A stretch of 64,000 bases of DNA, taken from the NCBI RefSeq assembly GCF_025629245.1, contig NZ_JANZXN010000006.1, positions 124,001 to 188,000 of the forward strand, given 5' to 3'. The translations under genes and the position numbers were made by a program. The notes under the pieces are model-generated. The model ran no database searches, had not been told where the DNA came from, and saw nothing but the letters and a program-made list of their open reading frames with translations. This DNA comes from Natronobiforma cellulositropha (GTDB lineage: Archaea; Halobacteriota; Halobacteria; Halobacteriales; Natrialbaceae). Positions within the stretch are counted from its first letter, which is position 1; each line of letters begins with the position of its first letter. Shown here piece after piece: positions 11,035 through 56,435 of the stretch.

Positions 11035-12954
11035 ATGACTACCATTGGTGGGTTTCAGGATCACGTCGCCAGGATCGACCTCGGATCGGGTGCCGTCGCG
11101 TACGAGGGCATCGACGACGAGTACGCGCGCAAGTACATCGGCGGGCGCGGTCTCGGCGTCCGCTACGTCTTCGAGCAGGGACCGGCGGTCGACCCGCTCG
11201 GGCCGGAGAACCTGCTCGCGTTCGTCAACGGACCGCTGTCGGGCACCCAGACGACGATGAGCGGGCGCATCGCCGTCTGCACGAAGTCGCCGCTGACCGG
11301 GACGGTGACCGACAGCCACCACGGCGGCTGGTCTGGCGCGCGCCTGAAGTGGGCCGGGTTCGACGCCCTCCTGTTCGAGGGCCAGGCCGACGACCCGGTC
11401 TACGCCTACGTCGAAGACGGCGAGGTCGAACTCAGAGACGCCTCCCACCTCTGGGGGCTGGGCGTCCACGAGACGCGTGAGACACTCGCCGCGGAGACCG
11501 GCGGCGAGTACGGCCAGGACCTCTCGATGATGGCGATCGGTCCCGGCGGGGAGAACGAGGTCCGCTACGCCTGCATCGTCAACGAGGACGACCGCGCCTC
11601 CGGCCGCGGTGGCACCGGCTGTGTGATGGGCAACAAGGGCCTGAAAGCCATCGTCGTCCGGTCGACGACGGAGATGCCGAAACCCGTCGACGAGGAGACC
11701 TTCGGCGAGGGCCACCGCCGGGCGATGGAACTCATCACGGAGTCGGACGTCACCGGCCCGAACGAGGGCGGTCTCTCGCTGTTCGGGACGAACGTCCTGA
11801 TGAACCTCACCGAGGAGATGGACGGTCTCCCGACGAAGAACGGCCACTACACGAGCACCGAGAGCGCGAGCGAGGCGCTCTCGGCCGACCTCGAGGCCGA
11901 ACGCGTCTCCGGGGAGAACGTCCGCGAGAACATTCTGGTGGACGAACCCACCTGTCACTCCTGTCCCGTGGCGTGTAAGAAGGAAGTCGAGGTCACCTAC
12001 CGCCACAAGGGCGAGGACCTCAACGTCCGCATGGAGAGCTTCGAGTACGAGTCGGCGTTCGCACTCGGCCCGAACTCGATGAACGACGACCGCGACGCCA
12101 TCGCCGTCATGATCGACCGCTGTAACGATCTGGGTGTCGACACCATCGAGACCGGCAACATGCTCGCGATGGCGATGGAGCTGACCGAAGCGGGGACGCT
12201 GACGGATCTCGAGGCGGACCTCGAGTGGGGAGACGCGGAGACGATGATCGACCTGATCGAGCGCATCGCCCGCCGCGAGGGCGACCTCGCGGACCTCCTC
12301 GCCGAGGGTGCCGACCGCGTCGCCGCGGCCCGGGACGCCGAGGCGAACTCGCTCGCGGTGAAAGGTCAGACCATCCCCGCCTACGACCCACGCTGTATGA
12401 AGGGGATGGGAATCGCCTACGCCACCTCGAACCGCGGGGCCTGTCACCTCCGGGCGTACACCCCCGCCGCCGAAATTCTCGGCATTCCCGAACCCGTCGA
12501 CCCCTACGAGTGGGAGGGCAAGGGCGAACTCACCGCCGCCTTCCAGGACCTCCACGCCGTCTCCGACAGCTTCGACATCTGCAAGTTCAACGCCTTCGCC
12601 GAAGGCATCGAGGAGTACGTCCTCCAGTACAACGGCATGACCGGTCTCGACGTGACCGAAGACGACCTGCTGGAGGCGGGCGAGCGCATCTACACCCTCG
12701 AGCGCTACTACAACAACCTCGCCGGCTTCGACGGCGCGGACGACTCCCTGCCTGCGCGCTTCCTCGAGGGCGGCACCCCCGGCCAGGGCGCGAGCGACGG
12801 CGAGTACTGCGAACTCGAGGAGATGAAAGCCGAGTACTACGACCACCGCGGCTGGGTCGACGGCGTCGTCCCCGACGAGAAACTCCGCGCGCTCGGAATC
12901 GAGGTCGGTCCCGGCACCGGCGTGGGCGACGGCGCGGCGACCGCCGACGACTGA
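11035..12954 (+). CDS. aor: Tungsten-dependent aldehyde ferredoxin oxidoreductase
   Basis: The 639-residue protein aligns in order with the AOR family. The N-terminal domain has YIGGRGLGVRY, FVNGPLSG and GRIAVCTKSPLTG, and the pterin-binding region has HHGGWSGARLKWAGFD and ASGRGGTGCVMGNKGLKAI. The [4Fe-4S] ligands are Cys307-x2-Cys310-x3-Cys314 with the distal Cys516 in SFDICKFN. Family enzymes oxidise aldehydes to acids with ferredoxin, using a bis-pterin tungsten cofactor. A MoaD-like protein encoded 630 bases downstream fits cofactor synthesis. The physiological aldehyde is unknown. Length is normal, and all cofactor ligands are present. Confidence 0.95.
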   Translation: MTTIGGFQDHVARIDLGSGAVAYEGIDDEYARKYIGGRGLGVRYVFEQGPAVDPLGPENLLAFVNGPLSGTQTTMSGRIAVCTKSPLTGTVTDSHHGGWSGARLKWAGFDALLFEGQADDPVYAYVEDGEVELRDASHLWGLGVHETRETLAAETGGEYGQDLSMMAIGPGGENEVRYACIVNEDDRASGRGGTGCVMGNKGLKAIVVRSTTEMPKPVDEETFGEGHRRAMELITESDVTGPNEGGLSLFGTNVLMNLTEEMDGLPTKNGHYTSTESASEALSADLEAERVSGENVRENILVDEPTCHSCPVACKKEVEVTYRHKGEDLNVRMESFEYESAFALGPNSMNDDRDAIAVMIDRCNDLGVDTIETGNMLAMAMELTEAGTLTDLEADLEWGDAETMIDLIERIARREGDLADLLAEGADRVAAARDAEANSLAVKGQTIPAYDPRCMKGMGIAYATSNRGACHLRAYTPAAEILGIPEPVDPYEWEGKGELTAAFQDLHAVSDSFDICKFNAFAEGIEEYVLQYNGMTGLDVTEDDLLEAGERIYTLERYYNNLAGFDGADDSLPARFLEGGTPGQGASDGEYCELEEMKAEYYDHRGWVDGVVPDEKLRALGIEVGPGTGVGDGAATADD

Positions 12955-45274: not shown

Positions 45275-45430
45275 GTTAACACCCGCGAGACGCCGAACTC
45301 GATTAACAACGGATCCGAAAAGACCACAGCAGCCGCTCTTCAGGGCATCATCGGCCACGACTATTCGCGGATGGAGATTTTTCCCATGGAGTTAGATTTA
45401 TGTTCGCACGAATATATATTTCTGCTATTG

Positions 45431-46636
45431 ATGGGGAAAACTTTCCGTCCAGAACAGCGACTCGTCGTGTCGTGTAGCCGGACGGACGAGGGGGACGAAA
45501 CGGAGCGCGTGGCGCTCCTCGAGGGGGATCTCGACTGGGAGCGCGTTACGGAACTCACACGTGTACACGGCGTGAGCGCGCTCGTCTACGGGAAGGTGAA
45601 CGAACACGAAGCGCGGGTGCCGGACGACGTACTCGAGCGCTTGCGAACGCAGGCGCGCCACGTCGCCCAGCGAAACCTGCGGATGCTGGGCGAGGTCGCA
45701 ACGCTCTCAGCTGCGTTCGCGGAGGCGGGCATCCGGGCGATTCCGTACCGAGGACCGGTCGTCGCCCAGCTCGCCTACGACAACGTCGGCCTGCGGACGT
45801 TCGGCGACCTCGACTTTCTGGTGCCCCACGAGGAGTTACCGGCGGCGAGGGCGTGTCTGCTCGAGCGTGGCTACGAGCCGCGGTACATCCTGCCGTCGAC
45901 GATGGAGCTCACGCCGACACAGGAGTGGGCGTACATCCGGTTCGCGCGCGACTATCCGTTCACACACGGGAGCGAGCCGTTCGAGGTCGAACTCCACTGG
46001 CGGGTGATCTCCCAGCACTTTCCGACGGCGATCGACCTCGAGATGGTGTGGGACCGGCGAGAGACGCTCACCGTTGCAGGGACCGAGGTGCCGGTACTCT
46101 CGGCCGAAGACCGGCTGTTGATGCTGTGCGTCCACGGGACGCGCCACGAGTGGGAGCGCCTGCAGTGGATCTGTGACGTCACCGAGTTCCTCGCGCGCTA
46201 CGAGGTCGACTGGGACGCGCTCGAGCGGCGCGCGGGCGAGCACCACTGTCGCCGGATGGTCTATCTCGGCCTGGCCGTCTCGAGAGAACTCCACGGAACG
46301 ACACTCCCGGCTGCGGTCGAGGAAGCGATCGACGCCGATCCGGTCATCGCAGACCTCACCGAACACGTCTGTCGAAACCTGTTCGATCACACCGGCGGGT
46401 GGAGTACGGACCTGCGTCGCTACCAGTCGCGGACGCTCGAGCGCAAGCGGGATAAGGCGAAACTCTGGCTCAGCTGGGCGTGTAAGCCCGACCGCGGAGA
46501 CATCGAGACGGTGGCGTTTCCGAAGCCGCTCGTGCCGTTGTACGTCGTGGTCAGATGGCTGCGCTTCGCGAGCGCGGCGGTTCGCCGCGTCCGACGCGAC
46601 CGGCGTTCGACCGACGAGCGGGTGGAGGTGACGTGA
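45431..46636 (+). CDS. PF14907-type nucleotidyltransferase of lasso cluster
   Basis: The 401-residue protein resembles nucleotidyltransferase family 5 (PF14907): PEQRLVVSCSRT start, GDLDWERVTELTRVHGVSALVYGKV, then R-x-FGDLDFLVPHEEL with the acidic pair near residues 124-131, and LHWRVISQHFP. Family members occur in bacterial lasso peptide clusters beside kinase and exporter genes (paeninodin type); their reaction on the peptide is unknown. ATG 45431 is chosen because upstream codons are AT-rich promoter-like sequence; ATG 45386 is possible. It overlaps the exporter gene (GTGATG), so the two are one operon. Confidence 0.85.
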   Translation: MGKTFRPEQRLVVSCSRTDEGDETERVALLEGDLDWERVTELTRVHGVSALVYGKVNEHEARVPDDVLERLRTQARHVAQRNLRMLGEVATLSAAFAEAGIRAIPYRGPVVAQLAYDNVGLRTFGDLDFLVPHEELPAARACLLERGYEPRYILPSTMELTPTQEWAYIRFARDYPFTHGSEPFEVELHWRVISQHFPTAIDLEMVWDRRETLTVAGTEVPVLSAEDRLLMLCVHGTRHEWERLQWICDVTEFLARYEVDWDALERRAGEHHCRRMVYLGLAVSRELHGTTLPAAVEEAIDADPVIADLTEHVCRNLFDHTGGWSTDLRRYQSRTLERKRDKAKLWLSWACKPDRGDIETVAFPKPLVPLYVVVRWLRFASAAVRRVRRDRRSTDERVEVT

Positions 46637-48459
46637 TGAGCGGCGACGGGGCGGCGTCTACGGGCGAACCCACCCTGAACGAGAAGTTTCACGCGCTCGT
46701 GCGCGTCGCGAAGTACCGGCCGAAGCAGGCCGCGCTGATCCTCGCGTTGAGCATGGTGGCGGCGCTGTTCGAGGGCATCGGCGTCAGCTTCATCGTCCCG
46801 ATCATCGAGATCGCCCAGGCCGACGGTGAGGTCGCCGAGGAAGCGACGGGCGTGGTGGCGTACTTCGTCTCCCTCTATCAGTTCGTCGGCGTCGAGCTGA
46901 CCCTCGAGACGCTGGTCGGCGGTCTCGCGCTGGTGATGGTGATCAGGTATCTGACGAACTTCCTCGTGGCGTGGCTGCAGGCGTCGCTGAGTACGAACTA
47001 CCTCGGCGAGCTTCGCCAGCAGGCCTACGACCGGCTGCTGGCGGCCGAGATCGCCTACGTCGACGCGGAGGATACGGACCAGGTGACGAACACGGTGATC
47101 ACCGAGACGGTCCAGTCGGCCCACGTGATCACACAGCTGTTGAAGCTGCTCGAGGTCGTCTTCTTCGCGGCCATCTACATCACGGTCGCACTCCTGCTCT
47201 CGCCGACGCTGACGGTGGCGACGGTCGTCGTCCTCGGCGTGATCGCCGTCCTGAGCCGCGTCGCGCTGCGGGCGGGCTACGAGATCGGTGAGGAGGTCGC
47301 GCAGGCGAACGAGCGGATTCAGGGGCTGGTCAACGCCGGGACGCGCGGGATCAGGGAGGTGAAGCTGTTCAACATGACCGACGACGTCAGCGGCGAGTAC
47401 CGGCGGACGATCGACCGCTTCGTCCGCACGCGCATCGGCCTCCAGCGCAACCAGGCGGCGCTGAAGAACGTCAACCAGCTGCTCAACGCGCTGGTCGTCT
47501 TCGCGCTGATCTACGTCGCGCTCGCGCACCTCTCGCTCTCGTTCGCCTACCTCGGGGGCTTTCTCTTCGCGATGTTTCGTCTGGCCCCGCTGGTCAGTAC
47601 GCTCAACAACCTGCTGTACGGCATCGACGGCGCGCTCCCCCACCTCGTGCGGACCCAGCACCTCATCGACGAGATGGAGCGCCACGAGGAGTCGAGCGGC
47701 GAGCGGGCGGCACCGAACCCGATCACCGAACTTGCCGTCGACGACGCCAGCTTCCACTACGCCAGCGGCAACGGCGTCAGAAACGTCTCACTGCGCGTCG
47801 AGCGCGGCGAGACGGTCGCGCTGGTCGGCCCGTCGGGGGCCGGAAAGTCGACGATCATCTCGTTGCTGACTCGGCTCTACGATCCCGACGAGGGATCGGT
47901 GCGCGCAAACGGCGTCTCGCTCTCGGAACTCGGTCTCGAGTCCTGGCACGACCGGGTGGCGATCGTCCGCCAGCACCCGTTCCTGTTCAACGAGACCCTG
48001 CGCTACAACGTGACGATCGGCAACCGGGAGGCGAGCGAGACGGACATCCGCCGCGCCTGTGAGGTGAGCCAGGTGTCGGCGTTTCTCGAGGAGTTGCCCG
48101 ACGGTCTCGAGACACGCGTCGGCGACGACGGGGTGCGCCTCTCGGGGGGCCAGCGCCAGCGCGTCGCCATCGCGCGGGCGCTGTTGACCGACGCGGACGT
48201 GCTGATTCTCGACGAGGCGACGAGCGAACTCGACTCGCCGACCGAGGAGGCGATCGTCCGCGGCATCGAGGGACTCGAGCGCGAGTACGCGACGGTCGTC
48301 ATCGGCCACTGGCTCTCGACGGTCCAGGGGGCCGATCGGCTCTACGTGGTCGCCGAAGGCGCGGTCGTCGAGTCGGGCAGCCACGAGGAGTTGCTCGCCG
48401 CCGGCGGCGAGTACGCCAGGCTGTACGACGCCCAGATGGAGTCGGTGACGGTGCCGTGA
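46636..48459 (+). CDS. ABC exporter (fused permease and ATPase) of lasso cluster
   Basis: The 607-residue half-transporter has about six transmembrane helices over residues 30-320 (ALILALSMVAALFEGIGVSFI, FVVRYLTNFLVAWLQ region). The nucleotide-binding domain carries Walker A GPSGAGKST (residues about 398-406), signature LSGGQRQR (about 502) and Walker B VLILDEATSELD (about 522); the switch His is in VVIGHWLST. It matches lasso peptide exporters (D genes), which secrete the peptide and give immunity. It overlaps the upstream nucleotidyltransferase stop. Confidence 0.92.
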   Translation: MSGDGAASTGEPTLNEKFHALVRVAKYRPKQAALILALSMVAALFEGIGVSFIVPIIEIAQADGEVAEEATGVVAYFVSLYQFVGVELTLETLVGGLALVMVIRYLTNFLVAWLQASLSTNYLGELRQQAYDRLLAAEIAYVDAEDTDQVTNTVITETVQSAHVITQLLKLLEVVFFAAIYITVALLLSPTLTVATVVVLGVIAVLSRVALRAGYEIGEEVAQANERIQGLVNAGTRGIREVKLFNMTDDVSGEYRRTIDRFVRTRIGLQRNQAALKNVNQLLNALVVFALIYVALAHLSLSFAYLGGFLFAMFRLAPLVSTLNNLLYGIDGALPHLVRTQHLIDEMERHEESSGERAAPNPITELAVDDASFHYASGNGVRNVSLRVERGETVALVGPSGAGKSTIISLLTRLYDPDEGSVRANGVSLSELGLESWHDRVAIVRQHPFLFNETLRYNVTIGNREASETDIRRACEVSQVSAFLEELPDGLETRVGDDGVRLSGGQRQRVAIARALLTDADVLILDEATSELDSPTEEAIVRGIEGLEREYATVVIGHWLSTVQGADRLYVVAEGAVVESGSHEELLAAGGEYARLYDAQMESVTVP

Positions 48460-48589: not shown

Positions 48590-49516
48590 ATGAACTACTA
48601 CGAAGCATACGGGATGACACTCGAGTCGGCGTTCGAGATGCCGGAGTTGCCGAGGGCCGAGCGGGTGGAGACGCCGGACGTCGAGATTCGTCGCGGCGAG
48701 GTCGAACCGGTCTCGGAGTGGGTCGAGGGGGAAGGCGGCCGCCGGATCCAGGCCGACGGCGACGTCTGTCGGCTCAGCTACGAGACCATCGGCTCGTTTC
48801 GCGTCGCGAAGGGGCGCGAAGTGGTGTTCGACCCGGTCTCCGAGGAGATTCCGACGATGAAGCTGTTCCGTCGGCTCATCCAGAACGAGATGATGGGCGT
48901 CCTGGCCCACCAGCGCGGCCTGCTCGTACTCCACGCGAGCGCCGTCGCCGTCGACGGCCGGGCGGCGGTGTTTCTGGGACCACGCCGGGCCGGAAAGTCG
49001 ACGACAGCGGCGGCCTTCCACACCCACGGCCACACCCTCATCGAGGACGACGTGGTGGGGATTCGCTTCGACGAGGACGGTCCCGTCGTCGTCCCGGGCG
49101 TCCCCCAGTTACGGCTGCTCCCCGACGCGGCCGACGCACTCGCGGTCGCGAGCGCGCCAGCGCCGACGACCGACGACGGCTCCGGAAAGCGCTACGAGCG
49201 CGTCGACCCCGTCCCCGAGCCGGTTCCCCTCGCGGGCTGTTACGTGCTCGAGGAGGGTGAGACGCTGGAACTCGCGCCGGTTCCCGCGCGCGAGCAACTG
49301 TTCGGGCTGATCGCGAAGACGTACGTCGCCGGACTGCTCGACGAGACGGGGACGACGGCGGCGAACTTCGAGCAGTGTTCGACGGTCGTCGAGACGACGC
49401 CGGTACAGCGACTCTGCCGCCCCAAGCGCCACGAAGTGTTACCGGCGCTGGTCGACCTGGTCGCTACGGATCTGGAGGCGGCGGCGTCCGACGGAATCGG
49501 GCACCGGCCAGCGTGA
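48590..49516 (+). CDS. HPr-kinase-like protein (K1) of lasso cluster
   Basis: The 308-residue protein has the C-terminal HPr kinase/phosphorylase fold: LVLHASAVAVDGRAAVFLG leads into Walker A GPRRAGKSTT (about residues 130-139). LIEDDVVGIRFDEDGPVVVPGVPQLRL supplies the acidic metal ligands. The N-terminal 100 residues carry YEAYGMTLESAFEMPEL typical of such kinases in lasso clusters. PadeK-type homologues phosphorylate a Ser in the lasso tail or precursor. A second copy lies at 52558-53478. The start ATG is supported by MNYYEAYGMTLESAF and a GTGTTCTGACGGGAATAGTGT stretch upstream without TATA. Confidence 0.88.
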   Translation: MNYYEAYGMTLESAFEMPELPRAERVETPDVEIRRGEVEPVSEWVEGEGGRRIQADGDVCRLSYETIGSFRVAKGREVVFDPVSEEIPTMKLFRRLIQNEMMGVLAHQRGLLVLHASAVAVDGRAAVFLGPRRAGKSTTAAAFHTHGHTLIEDDVVGIRFDEDGPVVVPGVPQLRLLPDAADALAVASAPAPTTDDGSGKRYERVDPVPEPVPLAGCYVLEEGETLELAPVPAREQLFGLIAKTYVAGLLDETGTTAANFEQCSTVVETTPVQRLCRPKRHEVLPALVDLVATDLEAAASDGIGHRPA

Positions 49517-49644: not shown

Positions 49645-49794
49645 TCAGAGGGAGACGACCGAGCCCACCAGCGGGGTGATCTCGGAGTACTCGTCGTCGC
49701 CGTTTCCGACTTTGTTCTGCTGCGTGATCGATTCGACCGAACCGTACTCGGTGACTTCGGGAGCGACGTAGCTACCGGATGGCTTGTGAGACAT
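49645..49794 (-). CDS. Lasso precursor peptide A1
   Basis: This 49-residue frame on the minus strand is too short for automatic calling. The leader has YVAPEVTEYGSVESIT (residues 9-24), matching the lasso leader pattern Y-x2-P-x-(L/V)-x3-G-x5-T. After Thr24 comes Gln25. If cleavage follows the usual Thr(-2) rule, the core begins at Gln26, with Asp33 at position 8 and Asp34 at position 9. Alternatively the core begins at Gly30 (GNGDDEYSE), with Glu38 at position 9. The tail reads ITPLVGSVVSL. A TATA element at 49819-49828 lies 29 bases before the ATG. The paralogue A2 is at 53526-53675. Confidence 0.85.
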   Translation of the reverse strand: MSHKPSGSYVAPEVTEYGSVESITQQNKVGNGDDEYSEITPLVGSVVSL

Positions 49795-50204
49795 CGGACT
49801 AACTTACAACGTATTTGGCTATAAAACTTTTCCCTTTGATTACAATTTCCAATGGATATATCCCTCAGATCCTATTTTCGACCGTATGTATTAATACACG
49901 AGACGGAGCCATCCGGCGGCAGACGCCACCGTACGGCGCTAATTCACTCGCCTCGCCCTCGAGAGTATGTGTCGGAGAGATAGTACAGACGAGGTGACTT
50001 GTTCCGGAGTGGAAGGGGCGAGCCGGTCGGTGGAACCCACAGTACTGGTTCCTGCATCGACACAGATCACCAGCGTCACGGCCGCATCCCGCTGCCTATA
50101 AAAATTGTCCCTGGATATGTTGGGAGAGGATCGCCGAACACGATCGATTCCTCGAGTACATGTGTGAAATATTAATACAGCGGGCGAAGTACACCTGCCA
50201 AGAC
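49795..50204. other. Divergent promoter region of A1 and B1
   Basis: No gene is seen in these 410 bases. It contains the A1 promoter (AGTTTTATAG, minus strand, 49819-49828) and, near the right end, AT-rich GAAATATTAAT at 50166-50175 about 34 bases before the B1 start. The middle is moderately AT-rich and free of convincing frames. Confidence 0.55.
49819..49828 (-). promoter_or_regulatory. TATA element of lasso precursor A1
   Basis: AGTTTTATAG on the minus strand is centred 29 bases before the ATG at 49794, so the precursor mRNA is leaderless. It supports A1 as an expressed independent gene. Confidence 0.6.
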
Positions 50205-50489
50205 ATGACAGACACATCCGTCAGCGAGTCGACGGTCGTCGCCGCGGGGGACCACCTGACGACGGAACTCGAGGGTGAACTCGTGATCCTCGACGCCGAC
50301 TCGGGGACCTACTACGGCCTGAACGAGGTCGGCCGCCGGATCTGGGAACTGATCGACGAACCCCGGTCGGTCGCCGACATCGAGCGACGACTGCTCGAGG
50401 AGTACGACGTCGAGCGCGAGCAGGTCGCAGCCGACGTGCGCTCGCTCGTCGACGACCTCGCCACGAGGGGACTGGTCAGCCTCGAGTGA
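50205..50489 (+). CDS. PqqD-like leader-binding protein (lasso B1, RRE)
   Basis: The 94-residue protein is a PqqD-type RiPP recognition element: VVAAGDHLTTELEGELVILDADSGTYYGLNEVGRRIWELIDEPRSVADIERRLLEEYDVE in segments. It contains the beta-strands plus three helices of the winged-helix fold. Family proteins bind the precursor leader (Y-x2-P-x-L-x3-G region) and hand it to the leader peptidase. ATG 50205 is chosen over 50160 because MCEILIQRAKYTC upstream is not RRE-like. The stop overlaps the cyclase start (GTGA), so both are cotranscribed. Confidence 0.93.
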   Translation: MTDTSVSESTVVAAGDHLTTELEGELVILDADSGTYYGLNEVGRRIWELIDEPRSVADIERRLLEEYDVEREQVAADVRSLVDDLATRGLVSLE

Positions 50490-52366
50490 GCGGGTTCGTC
50501 GCCCTCTACCGCCCGGGCGAGACGGTCGAAGAGAGCGAACTCGAGCGGCTCACGGCGACGCTCGCCCACCGGGGACCGGGGAGACCGACGCGCTGGCGTG
50601 AACGGAGCGTCGGTCTCGGCCACCAGCACCTCGAGACCACACCGGAGGCGCGTTACGAACGTCTCCCTTACGTGGACGAGCGCCTCGCGCTCACGGCCGA
50701 CGTCCGCCTCGACAACCGTGGGGCGCTCCTCGAGCGCCTCTCGCTGTCGGGCGATCCGGCACGGATTCCGGACGGGGAGGTGCTCGCGGCGGCCTACCGG
50801 CGGTGGGGGCGACGCTGTCCCGAACACCTCGTCGGCGCGTTCGCCTTCGCCATCTGGGACCGCGAGCGCGAGTGGCTCTTCTGTGCGCGCGACCAGCTGG
50901 GGATCAAGCCGTGTTACCTCCACCGCTCGCCCGGCGTGGTCGCCGCCGCCACGACGCTCCCGACGCTGCTCGAGGTGGCCGGTCTCGAGGCGACCCTCGA
51001 CGAGCGTGCGGTCGGCGACTACCTCGCGGGCCGCTTCGCCGACCGCGAGCGAACCGTCTTCGCCGAGGGAGGTCGCCTCCCGCCGGGGCACTCGCTGACG
51101 GTGACGGCCGACACCTGCGAGCGCCACCGCTACTGGTCGCTCGCGGACGTCGATCCGCTGCCGCGGCGCTCCCGGGGCTACTACGAGCGTCGCTTTCGCG
51201 ACCTGTTCGAGGCGGCCGTCACCGCGCGCGTGCGCACCGCCGGACCGGTGGGGTCGTTCCTGAGCGGCGGCATCGACTCGAGTTCGATCACCGCGCTCGC
51301 GGGCCGACTCCACGAGCGGCCGATACACGCCGTCTCGGCCGTCTTCGAGGAGGTGACCGCCTGTGACGAGCGCGCGTTCGTCGACGCCGTCCTCGAGACC
51401 GGCGCGTTCCGCCACCACACCGTCGCGGGCGACCGAGTTCCGCCGCTGTCGGCGCTCGAAGACCTGCTCGAGCACCACGGGCGTCCCTACTACCCGTCGC
51501 TGTGTATGCTCGTCCCGCGACTCTACGAGACGGCCGCCGGCGCGGGCGCGAGCGTCGTCCTCCACGGCTACGGCGGCGACCAGACGATGGGGTCCGATCC
51601 GCGCGGCTACTTTCGCGACCTCGCCCGTCGGGGCCGACTGCTCGCGCTCCGGCGGGAACTGCGCGGCTACTGTCGGCGCAACCCCTGGCTCGAGCCGCGA
51701 GCGGTCCTGTACCACGACGTCTGTCGCCCGCTGGCGCCGACGCCGGTCAGGCGGGCCTACCACGCCCGCTTCGAACCGGGCCACTACACGGACGCGACGC
51801 TCGCCCCCATCGAGCCGGCGTTCGCCCTCGAGAGCGGACTCGAGGGGCGACTGCGCCGCGACGCGCTCACGCCCGAGCCTCGCACACAGGCGGCGCTCAG
51901 ACGGCGCGCACTCTCGCGCGACGAACCGGCGTTCAACCTCGAACTCAACGACGCGATGGCGGCCGCGGTGGGCGTCGAACCCCGCTACCCCTACTTCGAC
52001 GTGCGCCTCGTCGAGTTCGCGGCGGCGCTGCCGGCCGGCACCACCGTCTCGGCGGGACGCGACCGGACGGTCGTCCGCGACGCGCTCGCCGACGTCCTCC
52101 CGCGCGCCGTCCGCGAGCGCGACGACAAGACGGAGTTCTCCCCGAACGTCCTCCGGACGACCCGCCGCTACGAACGCGAGCGAATCGAGACGACCCTGTT
52201 CGAGTCGACGCCACGCACCGATCCCTACCTCGACTTCGCGGCCCTCGAGCGCGCGTTCGCCCGCCTCGAGCGCGGGGACGCCTCGGTGAGCGACGCCCGG
52301 GGGCTCCTGATGGCGACGACGCTCGAGCGCTGGTGTGAGCGCTACGGCCCGGAAACGACCGTATAG
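50486..52366 (+). CDS. Lasso cyclase C1 (asparagine synthetase-like)
   Basis: The 626-residue protein has both halves of an asparagine synthetase B. The N-terminal Ntn domain begins MSGFVALYRPGE, with Ser where the glutaminase Cys should be, so it cannot use Gln. The ATP-binding domain carries SGGIDSSS at residues 260-267. Lasso cyclases use this domain to adenylate the side chain of Asp/Glu in the core and close the macrolactam with the N-terminus. Start is GTG 50486, overlapping the B1 stop by four bases. It is followed after 36 bases by the A3 precursor gene. Confidence 0.92.
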   Translation: MSGFVALYRPGETVEESELERLTATLAHRGPGRPTRWRERSVGLGHQHLETTPEARYERLPYVDERLALTADVRLDNRGALLERLSLSGDPARIPDGEVLAAAYRRWGRRCPEHLVGAFAFAIWDREREWLFCARDQLGIKPCYLHRSPGVVAAATTLPTLLEVAGLEATLDERAVGDYLAGRFADRERTVFAEGGRLPPGHSLTVTADTCERHRYWSLADVDPLPRRSRGYYERRFRDLFEAAVTARVRTAGPVGSFLSGGIDSSSITALAGRLHERPIHAVSAVFEEVTACDERAFVDAVLETGAFRHHTVAGDRVPPLSALEDLLEHHGRPYYPSLCMLVPRLYETAAGAGASVVLHGYGGDQTMGSDPRGYFRDLARRGRLLALRRELRGYCRRNPWLEPRAVLYHDVCRPLAPTPVRRAYHARFEPGHYTDATLAPIEPAFALESGLEGRLRRDALTPEPRTQAALRRRALSRDEPAFNLELNDAMAAAVGVEPRYPYFDVRLVEFAAALPAGTTVSAGRDRTVVRDALADVLPRAVRERDDKTEFSPNVLRTTRRYERERIETTLFESTPRTDPYLDFAALERAFARLERGDASVSDARGLLMATTLERWCERYGPETTV

Positions 52367-52401: not shown

Positions 52402-52545
52402 ATGACTACGATGGGGAACTACGAGTCACCAGTACTCGAGGTACTCGGTGACGTGGAGGCGGTAACGCACGGCAATCACTTCTCGGCCGTCGACGGCAAC
52501 TCCGGGACGACCGGCAACCGTGGACGGGGCAACCGCGGGCGGTAG
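52402..52545 (+). CDS. Lasso precursor peptide A3 (canonical)
   Basis: This 47-residue frame has the leader MTTMGNYESPVLEVLGDVEA, with Y7, P10, L12 and G16, and Thr22 followed by His23. Cleavage after His23 leaves a core starting Gly24-N-H-F-S-A-V-Asp31: Gly1 and Asp8, the classical spacing for an eight-residue macrolactam with Thr at -2. The tail (residues 32-47) is Gly/Asn/Arg/Thr rich and highly basic (GNRGRGNRGR at the end), rare among lasso peptides. It lies 36 bases after C1 and 12 bases before K2. The internal ATG (residue 4) at 52411 is an alternative start. Confidence 0.9.
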   Translation: MTTMGNYESPVLEVLGDVEAVTHGNHFSAVDGNSGTTGNRGRGNRGR

Positions 52546-52557
52546 TCGCCCCCGGCT

Positions 52558-53478
52558 GTGATCGTGACCACGGACGCGAGCGACCGCTGGGTCTACGAGG
52601 TCTACGGCCGGCGCGTCGAGTCGACGGTCGAACTGCCGCGACTGGCCGGACGGCGAGCGCCGGCGACGGACACCACACCGGACCTGACGGTTCGACGCGG
52701 CCACCTCGCGAGGACGCCCGAGACGCTCGAGCGCCGACTCGAGTGCGTCTACACGGACTCGGCCGGCGAGGTCGCCGCCTACCGGGACGGGCGGACGCTG
52801 TACTGGCTCGCCCCGGGAGTCGCCACCCTCCGGGTCGAGGCGGAGCGGGTCACGGTGGATCCGGCTCCGGAGGCGACGGCCGAGGCGCTCGGGCGACTCG
52901 TCACCAGCCCCGGGCTTCGCAGCGCGCTGTCGCTCGCCGGCGCGTTCGTCGTCCACGCGAGCGCCGTCGCCACGGACGGCCGGGCGGTCGCCTTCACCGG
53001 TCCGAGCGGACGGGGGAAGTCGACGGCGGCCGCGGCGTGTCACGCCGCCGGCTACGAGGTGCTCGGCGACGACGCGGCCGTCCTCGAGAGCCACGCGGGG
53101 ACGCCCGTCGTCGTCCCGGGCGTCCCCGTCCTCGAGACCGGCTCGACCACCGTCGACGCGAGCGGGCGGACGAGACCGGACGTGCGCCCACTCGCGGCGG
53201 TGTTCGTACTCGAGGAGGGCGACCGGTGGCAGGTCACCGAACGCGAGCGCCGGTGCGCGGCCGTCGACCTGCTCGCCGCCTCGGACGCGCTGTACGCGGC
53301 CACCGACGCGGCCCGCGCCGGGGCGGCGCTCGAGACCGCCGGTGCGCTCGCGAGCGCCGTGCCGGTCTACCGGCTGGTTCGCCCGCGCTCACACGCACGG
53401 CTGGCGGCGCTCCCGGACGTCGTCGAGGCGACGCTCGAGGACGTCGCTGGATCGGCGGTGTCTCCCAGAAAGGGGTGA
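52558..53478 (+). CDS. HPr-kinase-like protein (K2) of lasso cluster
   Basis: The 306-residue paralogue of K1 has FVVHASAVATDGRAVAFTG leading into Walker A GPSGRGKST (residues 148-156), then LGDDAAVLESH with the acidic pair, and TPVVVPGVPVLETGS. It starts at GTG 52558, 12 bases after the A3 stop, so it belongs to the B1-C1-A3-K2 operon. The N-terminal domain (WVYEVYGRRVESTVELPRL) matches that of K1. By analogy with PadeK/ThcoK it may phosphorylate a lasso Ser or Thr; A3 offers Ser28, Ser34, Thr36 and Thr37. Confidence 0.88.
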   Translation: MIVTTDASDRWVYEVYGRRVESTVELPRLAGRRAPATDTTPDLTVRRGHLARTPETLERRLECVYTDSAGEVAAYRDGRTLYWLAPGVATLRVEAERVTVDPAPEATAEALGRLVTSPGLRSALSLAGAFVVHASAVATDGRAVAFTGPSGRGKSTAAAACHAAGYEVLGDDAAVLESHAGTPVVVPGVPVLETGSTTVDASGRTRPDVRPLAAVFVLEEGDRWQVTERERRCAAVDLLAASDALYAATDAARAGAALETAGALASAVPVYRLVRPRSHARLAALPDVVEATLEDVAGSAVSPRKG

Positions 53479-53525
53479 TCGGATGACCCGCCCCGCGCGG
53501 GTCGGATGGGGCGTCGGGAAGCGGT

Positions 53526-53675
53526 TCAGACGGTGGTGATCGAACCGACGAGCGAGGTCAGTTCGGTGTACTCGTCCTCACCGCTGCCGATTTTGTTCTG
53601 TTGGGTGATCGACTCGACGGATCCGTACTCGGTCACGTCCGGCGCGACGTAGGGTTTCTTTGAATCAGTAGCCAT
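53526..53675 (-). CDS. Lasso precursor peptide A2
   Basis: The 49-residue frame on the minus strand is a paralogue of A1. Residues 9-28 are nearly identical (YVAPDVTEYGSVESITQQNK). Downstream comes G30-S-G-E33-D34-E-Y-T-E38. If cleavage follows Thr24-Gln25, the core begins with Gln26 and Glu33 is at position 8; if it begins at Gly30, Glu38 is at position 9. The tail reads LTSLVGSITTV. A TATA element at 53701-53710 lies 30 bases before the ATG. It is followed upstream in transcription by C2 and B2. Confidence 0.85.
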   Translation of the reverse strand: MATDSKKPYVAPDVTEYGSVESITQQNKIGSGEDEYTELTSLVGSITTV

Positions 53676-53700
53676 CGAGTTGGCATTCAATACAGTAGTC

Positions 53701-53710
53701 TATAAGTATA
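53701..53710 (-). promoter_or_regulatory. TATA element of lasso precursor A2
   Basis: TATACTTATA on the minus strand is centred 30 bases before the ATG at 53675. It gives A2 its own promoter, independent of the upstream B2-C2 operon. Confidence 0.6.
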
Positions 53711-53718
53711 TCTCTTGG

Positions 53719-55629
53719 TTAGTGGAATGTATCCGGTGGATCGGCGGCGGGTGGCTCTCGAGCGTCGGCGACGGTCTCGTCGTACCAGGCCGACAGCGAG
53801 AGCGCACGCCAGAGCGAGCGGGCGTCACGGCTCGTCGGCTCGTCCGTGAACCGCTCGTAGGCGGCTCGAAGCTCCGCCTCGTCGAGGTAGGCGGTGAGCG
53901 GGCCGGGGTCGTCGGCGAGCGTGCGGAGTCGGTCGTCCTCCTTCGCGAGGGCGTTCCAGAAGCCTTCGTTCATCGCCGTCTTCCAGGGCCGCCACTGGAC
54001 GGTCTCGGGGAGGAGTCCGTCGAGCGAGCGTCGGATGATCGAGCGCGTCCAGCCGTCGTTGAGCTGCTGTGAGCGCGGGATCGCGAGCGAGAACTCGAGG
54101 AGGCGGACGTCGGTGAAGGGGTAGCGCTGTTCGACGCCGAAGGCGGCGTTGGCGACGTCGCTGGTCTCGAGACTGGCGCAGACGCGGCCGCCGGTGAGCG
54201 AGTCGTACTGCCAGGTGCGAGCGCGCTGGCGAAGCGCCGAGGGGGAGTCTCGCGCCTGTGCGACGCGCTCGTCGAGACCGAGGCGGGAGACGAAGGCGTC
54301 GTCGAGCGTGGGGTTCTCGGCATCGGTGAGCACCGGCTGGCCGCGGGCGCGCGTGCGCCGACGCAAGAGGGCGTCCGGGACCATCGGTTTGAGCGCGTGA
54401 CGGACGAAGAGGTGACGCGCCGGTGCGTCGAGGATGTCGGCCATCGCGGTGAGTTCGCGGTGGAGGTGGCGCCACCGGCCGGTGCGAAGGAGGTGGGGGA
54501 GCAACTCGAGACCGTAGTTGACGGCGCTGTCGCCGAGGGCCCCACAGAGGACGACGTTGACGCCCGCCTCCCGGACGTGTTTGGCCTTCTCCCAGCGCGC
54601 GAAGTGGAGCGTGTTGTGCGGCGGCTGGTCGTAGTGGTCGAACACCCGCTCGCGGTCGACCAGGACGGAGACGTCGTCCGCGAACAGATACTGCGAGACG
54701 ATTCCCTCGCGGTCGACGACGGACTCGATGAACTCGCGTTCGTCGCTCGAGGGGGCGTCGTCGAAGACGTTCGAGAAGGTGTACAGCGGCTGGTCGGCGG
54801 GGAGGAGGTCGCGGGCGACGACGGTGATCGACGAGGAGTCGAGACCGCCGCTGAGCGCCGCGCCGACGGGACCCGGCGAGCGGAACCGACAGCGGACGGC
54901 TTCCTCGAACAGCTCGCGAAAGCGTCGCTCGTAGGCCGCGTCGGAGGCGAGCGTGATCGTCCGCGTTGGATCGAGGTCCCAGTAGCGCCAGCGCTCGAGA
55001 CCGTCGGCGTCGACCGAGAGTGCGTGTGCGGGCGGGAGCCGGCGAACCGCGTCGTAGAAGGTGCGCTCGGTGTCCTCGTGGAGTCCACAGAGGAAGTCCG
55101 CGACCCGCAGGTCGTCGACCGCAGGCGACACCGATGGGTGTGCGAGCAGGGCCTTCTGCTCGGAGGCGCAGGCGAACGCCTCCTCGCTGGCGGTGTAGTA
55201 GAACGGTTTGACGCCGACGTGGTCGCGCGCACAGAAGAGCCGGTCTCGCGCCCCGTCCCAGATGGCGAACGCGAACGCGCCGAGGAGGTGTTCGGGACAG
55301 CGCTCGCCCCACTCGCGGTAGGCCGCCGCGAGCAGCTCGCTCTCGGTGAGCGGCTCCGAGGGAGAGAGCGAGAGCGACTCACGCAGTTCCCGGCGGTTGT
55401 CGAGGCGGGCGTCGGCGGTGACGACGAGGTCACCCGAGACGTGCGGCCAGCGCTCCCTGTGGGCTTCGGGCGTCGCGATCAGGTGCTGGTGGCCGAGACC
55501 GACCCGTCCCTCGAGCCAGGTGTCGCTTCCATCGGGACCGCGGTGGGCGAGGCGCGCACACAGGTCGTGGACGTCCTCGGGGGAGACGACGCCCCCACCG
55601 CGGTCGAAGACGCCGACGATGCCGCTCAC
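53719..55629 (-). CDS. Lasso cyclase C2 (asparagine synthetase-like)
   Basis: The 636-residue protein resembles C1. It begins MSGIVGVFDRGGGVV with Ser in place of the glutaminase Cys, and has SGGLDSSS at residues 260-267 in the ATP-pyrophosphatase domain. It forms the macrolactam between the core N-terminus and an Asp/Glu side chain. The ATG overlaps the B2 stop by four bases, so B2 and C2 are co-translated. The A2 precursor lies 43 bases downstream of its stop. C2 shares high similarity with C1 in the N-terminal 150 residues but diverges after the ATP site. Confidence 0.92.
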   Translation of the reverse strand: MSGIVGVFDRGGGVVSPEDVHDLCARLAHRGPDGSDTWLEGRVGLGHQHLIATPEAHRERWPHVSGDLVVTADARLDNRRELRESLSLSPSEPLTESELLAAAYREWGERCPEHLLGAFAFAIWDGARDRLFCARDHVGVKPFYYTASEEAFACASEQKALLAHPSVSPAVDDLRVADFLCGLHEDTERTFYDAVRRLPPAHALSVDADGLERWRYWDLDPTRTITLASDAAYERRFRELFEEAVRCRFRSPGPVGAALSGGLDSSSITVVARDLLPADQPLYTFSNVFDDAPSSDEREFIESVVDREGIVSQYLFADDVSVLVDRERVFDHYDQPPHNTLHFARWEKAKHVREAGVNVVLCGALGDSAVNYGLELLPHLLRTGRWRHLHRELTAMADILDAPARHLFVRHALKPMVPDALLRRRTRARGQPVLTDAENPTLDDAFVSRLGLDERVAQARDSPSALRQRARTWQYDSLTGGRVCASLETSDVANAAFGVEQRYPFTDVRLLEFSLAIPRSQQLNDGWTRSIIRRSLDGLLPETVQWRPWKTAMNEGFWNALAKEDDRLRTLADDPGPLTAYLDEAELRAAYERFTDEPTSRDARSLWRALSLSAWYDETVADAREPPAADPPDTFH

Positions 55630-56132
55630 GACTCGTCACCCTCGTTGAGCGGTGGCAGCGGCTGGTAGCGCGAGAGGTCCTCGAGGTCGCCGATGATGAT
55701 CGCGTCGCCGTACTCGATCCAGCTGTGGGCTTCGAACGTGCCGTCCCCGTTCTTGTCGACGCCGATGCGGTGGACGACGTCGCCGTCGAGGTCGTAGAGA
55801 CGGAGCAGCGTCTCCGTGCTCAGCGAGCGCATCAGACAGGTCCGGTGGCCGGGGAGCCGTGCGTCGGCGGCTTCGACGGCCCAGGCGACACGGTCGGGCG
55901 TCGGCGAGCCAGGGACGAGCCGCGAGAGGACGCCGGCGGGAGCTAAGAGCAGCCGCCTGAACGTCGCGAACGGCAGGAGAAAGACCCCGACTCGCGTGAG
56001 CAAGAGGAGCCAGACGGCACTCACCACTCTGGCTGCGTCGCCCGGCGGAAGCCGGAGGAAGGCGACGACACGCCGGCTCACGGCACCACCCCGGTCCGGT
56101 TCCGACGGTCCCGCCTCTCCACGACAGTACAT
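55626..56132 (-). CDS. Lasso leader peptidase B2 (transglutaminase fold)
   Basis: The 168-residue protein belongs to the lasso B2/McjB protease family (PF13471-like). It has a hydrophobic helix (AVWLLLLTRVGVFLLPFATF, residues 39-58) followed by the catalytic region with Cys99 in RTCLMRSLSTETLLRLYDL and His136 in FEAHSWIEYGD; an Asp after it (143 or 149) completes a Cys-His-Asp triad. It cuts the precursor after the leader. ATG 56132 is chosen because a TATA element (56156-56168) lies 30 bases upstream. Start of the B2-C2 operon. Confidence 0.9.
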   Translation of the reverse strand: MYCRGEAGPSEPDRGGAVSRRVVAFLRLPPGDAARVVSAVWLLLLTRVGVFLLPFATFRRLLLAPAGVLSRLVPGSPTPDRVAWAVEAADARLPGHRTCLMRSLSTETLLRLYDLDGDVVHRIGVDKNGDGTFEAHSWIEYGDAIIIGDLEDLSRYQPLPPLNEGDES

Positions 56133-56435
56133 GTCTTCGTCACGGCGTTCACTCACTAATATTATAGTATCTGCTGGGCTATAAACGTCACCGTCGGGCG
56201 TAGACGAGTGGTACCACCCCTCACGAGCGTGCGTATGGGACGAGGAGACGGGAAATACCCCCTTCAGGCCCATCGGACGACGCGATACGCCGCTACAACT
56301 AATTACTGTTGGCCCGTACACCGACTGTGACCTTCACGACAAATAATCATAATAATACGCATTTACTATCCTGAAATATATTATAGGAAGAACATCCAAA
56401 GCATTATAAATCTAAGAATAGAGAGGGCTGTTGGA
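56133..56435. other. Divergent promoter region between B2 and zinc-finger gene
   Basis: No credible frame lies in these 303 bases. They hold the B2 TATA element (ACTATAATATTAG on the minus strand, 56156-56168) and, near the right end, GCATTATAAATC at 56401-56412, about 29 bases before the ATG at 56436. The middle includes an AT-rich run (ATAATCATAATAATACG). Confidence 0.55.

Follow-up and report, generated by a model that had tools for sequence, protein, structure and literature searches.

Lasso peptide clusters of the paeninodin/pseudomycoidin type (PadeA-K-B1-B2-C; PsmK, PsmN) are described as combining B1, B2 and C with an HprK-like kinase, a nucleotidyltransferase and an MsbA-like ABC protein (PMC9266682, PMC13381572). 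The kinases of paeninodins carry an H-K-D-D catalytic set and phosphorylate a C-terminal Ser of the peptide (PMC9266682), the leaders contain a WxxP element, and a related kinase, LppK, does not accept Thr (PMC13381572). The linear polyphosphorylated peptides (LPPs) of Bacilli have an RRE, an HprK-like kinase, an NTP transferase, an exporter and a YxxP leader, with no C and with a signal-peptidase-like enzyme (PMC13381572). Several precursors in one cluster can be handled by the same enzymes, as described for caulosegnins I–III of Caulobacter segnis, the rings of which have 8 and 9 residues (PMC13352647). Lasso rings span 7–9 residues, with ten reached in vitro (PMC8498205), and the published positions of B1/B2 recognition are Tyr(−17), Pro(−14), Leu(−12) and Thr(−2) (PMC10368454). 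The residues observed at core position 1 are Gly, Cys, Ser and Ala; metanodin, with Thr at −2, has a ring that starts at Asn1, which is reported as new and lies outside these four, and nine ring-opened forms of it were observed (PMC12670498). An antiSMASH analysis in a genome note on brine haloarchaea reports a cluster with genes for lasso B1 and B2 and for a kinase, to which Halopiger xanaduensis is nearest (PMC10093198). We saw no isolated archaeal lasso peptide in the open-access literature, subscription papers being mostly outside the scope of the search.

The window, which is the whole stretch of 64,000 nucleotides from Natronobiforma cellulositropha that we analyzed, holds the same kinds of genes. 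In order, these are an NTP_transf_5 nucleotidyltransferase (45371–46636, plus strand; PF14907, 226 bits, cut-off 31.2), an MsbA/HepA-like ABC exporter (46555–48459, plus; none of the families shown reaches its cut-off), an HprK-like kinase, K1, that adjoins the precursor gene A1 (48590–49516, plus), A1 itself (49645–49794, minus), the PqqD/RRE leader-binding protein B1 (50160–50489, plus; PF05402, 81.5 bits, above cut-off), a second lasso-type cyclase, C1, paired with the precursor A3 (50486–52366, plus; NF033535, 488 bits, below the cut-off of 525), A3 (52402–52545, plus), a second HprK-like kinase, K2, that adjoins A3 and A2 (52558–53478, plus), A2 (53526–53675, minus), the lasso macrolactam synthetase C2 (53719–55629, minus; NF033535, 630.9 bits, cut-off 525) and the transglutaminase-like leader peptidase B2 (55626–56321, minus; NF033537, 84.5 bits, cut-off 33). 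A2 thus lies near a B1, a B2 and an Asn-synthetase-like C that all score above their cut-offs. B1 has solved relatives, TbiB1 and TfuB1, and a PDB search with B2 returned no match. The listed reading frame of B2 starts at GTG 56321, the true start being perhaps ATG 56132, and its residues Cys162 and His199 are kept in 17/17 sequences. The kinase, the NTP transferase and the ABC protein make up a paeninodin-like gene set in which the HprK-family matches of both kinases fall under the family cut-offs; the H-K-D-D set is kept in all 20 kinases aligned. Searching the organism's own assembly, which is 96.5% complete, we found B1 as the only PqqD match, a single B2 and two lasso-type cyclases. Relative to the paeninodin type, A2 is haloarchaeal, its leader element is YVAP, which begins with Tyr, its end (...GSITTV) has an internal Gly-Ser and no C-terminal Ser, and it has a predicted Gln1 and Asp9. 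As in the caulosegnin cluster, several precursors occur together, A1 and A2 having the same predicted ring acid and ring size; the Natronobiforma cluster, however, also has a second cyclase and a dissimilar third precursor.

A2 reads from 53675 to 53526 on the minus strand as a complete 49-residue gene, from ATG to a TGA stop at 53528–53526. Its translation is MATDSKKPYVAPDVTEYGSVESITQQNKIGSGEDEYTELTSLVGSITTV*, with a leader at Tyr9–Gln25 and a predicted core at Gln26–Val49. The plus strand of the same stretch is interrupted by a stop in that register. Independent NCBIfam lasso models match both A2 and A1, which argues that A2 is not a chance frame: lasso_leader_L3 (NF033521) gives 18.5 bits with A2, just below its cut-off of 19, and 21.6 bits with A1, which passes, and lasso_cyano (NF033528) gives 26.1 and 24.2 bits, respectively, both below its cut-off of 33. 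The earlier note had dismissed a random frame on the strength of a GxG(D/E)DEY(S/T)E(I/L)T block, which is present as described, and had proposed that frameshifts or stop codons inside A2 in relatives would overturn this view. Homologues elsewhere are intact; a stop-tolerant genome search flagged two precursor matches, both of which, judged by their length, extend beyond the natural stop. A2 is confirmed as a real gene. An antisense gene on the plus strand (53506–53652, 48 aa) was considered and rejected, because the differences between A1 and A2 over Tyr9–Lys28 all fall in third positions of the minus-strand frame and because the TATA box is a minus-strand element. This TATA-like box (TTATAG, 53700–53705, minus) lies at −30 to −25 from the ATG, and that of A1 (TTTTATAG, 49819–49826, minus) at −32 to −25, so that both end 25 nt before the start codon. 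With a word list that was drawn up after inspection of four promoters, 20 of the 24 related genes have a TATA-like word between −36 and −24, whereas 1000 shuffles gave 1.6 on average and never more than 6. Since such a box stands ahead of both genes, A1 and A2 are probably each transcribed on their own, as leaderless messages.

A1, located ∼4 kb from A2 on the same strand, encodes a paralogue of 49 aa. BLASTP finds 33/48 residues identical (E 2e-23), and 31/49 are equal in an ungapped comparison. Between Tyr9 and Lys28 the two share 19 of 20 residues, and the 9 nucleotide differences in this stretch are distributed over codon positions as 0, 0 and 9. Differences confined to third positions indicate a protein under selection rather than a random frame. 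The changes from A1 to A2 are those the earlier note had listed: Asp33 becomes Glu33, Asp34 is kept and the tail ITPLVGSVVSL becomes LTSLVGSITTV beyond the near-identical 20-residue stretch. Its view of A2 as a paralogue of A1 is supported, both being RiPP precursors. The comparison of leader and core that it proposed, carried out on A1 and A2, gives NG86 dN/dS values (leader, 0.03/1.06; core, 0.27/0.51) that are rough, being based on 16 and 23 codons, and that indicate a difference in constraint. Because our search found a single B1 and a single B2, A1 and A2 would need to share this leader-processing pair, and the suggestion that leader processing is common to the two is well supported.

A search of 392 genomes of the order found 31 with a match to the lasso B2 model, 28 of them above cut-off, and 28 with a match to the precursor profile (E ≤ 0.001), several of which come from the leader alone; in the family, the profile matches 13 of 125 genomes. 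We assembled 24 A1/A2-type precursors, which come from 15 genomes and were first chosen by leader pattern and by tblastn near cyclases, including those of Natronoglomus mannanivorans, Natrarchaeobius chitinivorans, Halosimplex carlsbadense and plasmid pHALXA01 of Halopiger xanaduensis. All 24 genes are intact with an ATG start, and nine of the 15 genomes have two each. In every one the leader is followed by [N/D/E]-K-x-G-x3-D, a pattern composed after the 24 were in view, the Asp of which corresponds to Asp34 of A2. Frames that show the leader pattern and were set aside as non-genes occur at L033:2937, L035:3946 and L035:18287, with similar ones in L036, L050, L074 and L075 and at position 11210 of the window. 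Also left out were precursors that lack the motif and come from genomes with a C, namely A3 in three genomes, G408 (L074, L075), G137 (L090) and G003 (L089). The precursor on the Halopiger plasmid (L104:8001–8117) sits beside annotated PqqD, B2 and asnB genes at a place where the incomplete gene table lists none. A scan of viral contigs gave one weak locus (L084), in which we found no precursor-like frame.

The third precursor, A3, was unmentioned in the earlier note and has its own cyclase and kinase. Its match to lasso_leader_L3 (24.7 bits) is above the cut-off of 19, and it has relatives in the genomes G365 and G416. The leader YESPVLEVLGDVEAVT (Y..P...T) precedes the core GNHFSAVDGNSGTTGNRG... 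(GNHFSAVD-GNSGTTGNRG...), which has a classic Gly1/Asp8 ring. Cores of the form G-[NRQ]-HFS-[AR]-VD-GNSGTTGNRG are seen in three genomes (window 52402–52545, plus; L078:6929, minus; L073:8037, plus), and in all three the precursor lies beside a K2-type kinase and a cyclase of the C1 type. A tree built from 21 cyclases places the A3-linked enzymes (C1 of the window and those of G365 and G416) in one clade with 100/100 support and 16 others in a separate C2 clade, also with 100/100 support; all 16 come from genomes with A1/A2-type precursors. Because the cyclase clades track the precursor types, the most likely division of labor is that C2 acts on A1 and A2 and C1 acts on A3, both relying on the one B1/B2 pair. 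In another genome (G137, locus L090), a precursor with a leader of the A1/A2 type and an RG-repeat core without Asp or Glu at ring distance adjoins a divergent cyclase on a long branch.

The earlier note viewed A2 as a precursor with a shifted ring acid, Asp33 having been replaced by Glu33. The distribution of residues among the relatives does not support this. Asp is present at position 34 in 24/24 precursors, whereas residue 33 is acidic in 14 (E in 10, D in 4) and otherwise T (5), S (2), P, V or M (1 each). In a MAFFT alignment of 20 of the 24, Lys28, Gly30, Asp34 and Gly44 are the invariant positions after the leader. The closest precursors found outside the archaea, which are lasso_cyano (NF033528)-like and lie on plasmids of Nostoc, Paracoccus and Sulfitobacter (two in the last), align with A2 from Thr24 to Asp34 without a gap; all four have G5, D9 and Leu at position 33, and T24, G30 and D34 are invariant in the nine aligned sequences that include them. 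They differ from A2 in that Leu at core position 8, in their tails (...LTFS/VTLS/LTTP) and, in two of the four, in Gly1. In Paracoccus, a serine kinase is annotated beside B1-B2-C. Tyr9, Pro12, Val14 and Thr24 of A2 sit in exactly the published leader spacing, as expected of a lasso leader, and the stretch from Tyr to Thr is 16 residues in all 24. By this register the core of A1 and A2 would start at Gln26, and Asp34 would be position 9, within the range of 7–9 at which a lasso core has its Asp or Glu. It follows from the invariant Asp34, the variable residue 33 and the register that the ring acid would be unshifted between A1 and A2.

Closure of the ring at residue 33 (core position 8; Asp in A1, Glu in A2), with products differing in their ring acid, would draw on the acidic character of that residue in both precursors; counted from Gln26, the ring would then have 8 residues, a known size. 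We consider it improbable, as precursors with P, S, T, V or M at this place (10/24) go with the same cyclase clade and an invariant Asp34, and the bacterial relatives have Leu there throughout. Asp33 to Glu33 is, judged from the alignments, a mild change within the ring beside an unchanged ring acid; a D/E contrast at 33 occurs in two of the nine paralogue pairs, those of Natronobiforma and Natronoglomus. A core start at Gly30 with Glu38 as the ring acid, which arose from a gapped match to lasso_leader_L3 (protein 9–31 on model 1–19), was rejected, since the place of Glu38 is E or D in only 18/24 and the bacterial relatives align without that gap. The predicted Gln1 of A2 lies outside the residue types Gly, Ala, Ser, Cys and Asn (metanodin), and the passages of PMC12670498 offered no precedent for Gln at core position 1. 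An Asn start, as in metanodin, is predicted in 8 of the 13 precursors with canonical spacing; A1 and A2 would start with Gln.

The two cores of the cluster recur elsewhere. In Natronoglomus the entire double cluster is present, with its gene order kept and an additional K1-type kinase, and its copies are swapped relative to the window, with an A2-like core beside K1 and an A1-like core beside C2. By core type, the ring residues agree in 7/8 (A1 vs Ngl_a) and 8/8 (A2 vs Ngl_b), against 5/8 between A1 and A2. The leaders group by genome, with 15/16 residues shared within each genome and 12–14/16 between genomes. Informative residues number 2 by genome and 0 by type in the leader and 0 by genome and 3 by type in the core; the nucleotides give a weak signal (3 by genome and 1 by type in the leader, 3 and 4 in the core), and recent gene conversion among A1, A2 and the Natronoglomus copies is not shown by it. 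Comparisons of the flanks of these genes gave signals that were too weak or confounded by adjacent coding sequence. Natural core diversification, which the earlier note saw in two precursors with one leader, is too strong a description if it means free diversification, since the types are conserved between genomes. From the comparison of residues, the A1 and A2 cores are two stable types common to Natronobiforma and Natronoglomus, at swapped positions.

We estimate a probability of roughly two in three that A2 is a separately transcribed lasso-type precursor that matures as follows. B1 would bind the leader motif Y9-x2-P12-x-V14, and B2 would cleave after Thr24-Gln25, leaving QNKIGSGEDEYTELTSLVGSITTV. 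C2 would then activate Asp34 and join it to the new N-terminus, giving a 9-residue ring, Gln26–Asp34, through which the tail would be threaded. A1 would be processed likewise by the same B1, B2 and C2, and its ring acid would not differ. K1 (or K2) would probably phosphorylate Ser45 in the tail, the nucleotidyltransferase may decorate the resulting phosphate, and the ABC protein would export the product. Ser45, which is a guess at the kinase target, belongs to a G-S motif conserved in 22 of the 24 tails, the other two having G-D. The DNA shows directly that the gene and the enzymes are there, that one B1 and one B2 are found and that Asp34 is invariant; from these we infer the cut site, the ring partner, threading, phosphorylation and export.

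The cluster shares with the LPPs of Bacilli the RRE, the HprK-like kinase, the NTP transferase, the exporter and the YxxP leader. As with LPPs and with haloarchaeal clusters that have no C, A2 might stay linear and undergo only leader removal and phosphorylation. In 15 of the 32 genomes with a lasso B2 and/or an A1/A2-type leader there is no C2-like cyclase (no match at E ≤ 1e-60), so the leader, kinase and NTP transferase do occur without C elsewhere. LPPs, however, have no macrolactam cyclase, and A2 is adjoined by C2 and B2: an intact C2 lies directly upstream, A2 starting 43 nt past its end, and all 15 genomes combine this precursor type with a cyclase of the C2 clade, which makes a linear product very improbable. 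The cyclase-free haloarchaeal clusters (L036, L038, L041, L048, L050 and L076, viewed as 20-kb or whole-contig loci) have B1, B2, an HprK-like kinase, an NTP transferase and, in most cases, an ABC protein, and 11 of the 15 cyclase-free genomes belong to one genus with the short conserved core NWWDHDDGYGKWS or a close variant. These clusters look like archaeal counterparts of the LPPs of Bacilli, but with B2. At L076:10747 (plus), a lasso-type leader (YEPPRLTTFGNVEEIT) is followed by a run of ∼19 glycines, and this frame adjoins two sister precursors with Gly-rich cores.

The cut in A2 was placed by its distance from the leader Thr, a rule that may fail in the wider family, because the spacing between this Thr and the ring Asp varies among the relatives. 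The offset from Thr to the motif is 3 in 13 precursors, A1 and A2 included, 4 in six, 5 in three and 6 in two, for which the canonical cut would give rings of 9, 10, 11 and 12 residues, respectively. In 11 of the 24, then, the Thr-to-Asp spacing is 1–3 residues longer than in A2, and the invariant Asp would fall at 10–12, implying rings of 10–12 residues, a moved or non-canonical cut, or a ring partner other than the N-terminus. Spacing is fixed in the controls, comprising three precursors of the A3 type and four from bacteria. Four of the nine paralogue pairs (Natronoglomus, G280, Halosimplex and G199) have unequal spacing, and each of the three such genomes that the cyclase search covered has a single C2-type cyclase. 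One further genome (L034, G115) has two C2-type cyclases together with two precursors at the longest spacing, 6.

The start of the ring could be fixed by the motif rather than by the leader Thr, with cutting or trimming at a set distance before Lys28; the ring might, for example, begin at Asn27 and have 8 residues or begin at Lys28 and have 7, the Thr then lying at −3 to −6 from Asn27 or its equivalent. This is unlikely, though the motif is rigid in 24/24 across offsets of 3–6 and single C2-type cyclases go with unequal pairs, as just described. The register from Tyr to Thr is equally rigid, and Thr(−2) accompanies the cut in known systems (PMC10368454). A2 and the bacterial relatives, moreover, fit the canonical cut. 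A further proposal is that C2 links the side chain of Lys28 to Asp34, producing a side-chain macrolactam and no lasso, the exact leader cut being irrelevant. Of the motif residues, only Lys28, Gly30 and Asp34 are the same in all 24, and the Thr-to-Lys spacing varies. Still, two of the four bacterial relatives are without Lys at that place, and B2 is conserved, which fits a need for a new N-terminus. To our knowledge, no lasso cyclase of the asparagine-synthetase type uses a Lys side chain, and we regard this as the least probable of the alternatives.

We therefore keep the canonical reading for A2 itself and offer a broader one for the type tentatively, judging the odds to be somewhat against it. 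The ring would be set by the rigid [N/D/E]-K-x-G-x3-D motif, uncoupled from the leader Thr, so that relatives would form rings of 10, 11 or 12 residues next to the 9 of A1 and A2, with two sizes made by one enzyme in one Natronoglomus cell, or would have a motif-defined start, for which even the Lys side chain might serve; C1 (for A3) and C2 (for A1 and A2), which are distantly related, would both draw on one B1/B2 pair.

As predicted from its genes, the A1/A2 type is a haloarchaeal variant of the phosphorylated-type lasso peptides, the variant being new and the kind known. The variable spacing is the most unexpected result and the point most worth testing. Since 15 haloarchaeal genomes have 24 intact precursors between them, nine with a pair, the question can be tested in strains of Natronoglomus, Halopiger, Natrarchaeobius and Halosimplex, and it bears on what determines the size of a lasso ring.
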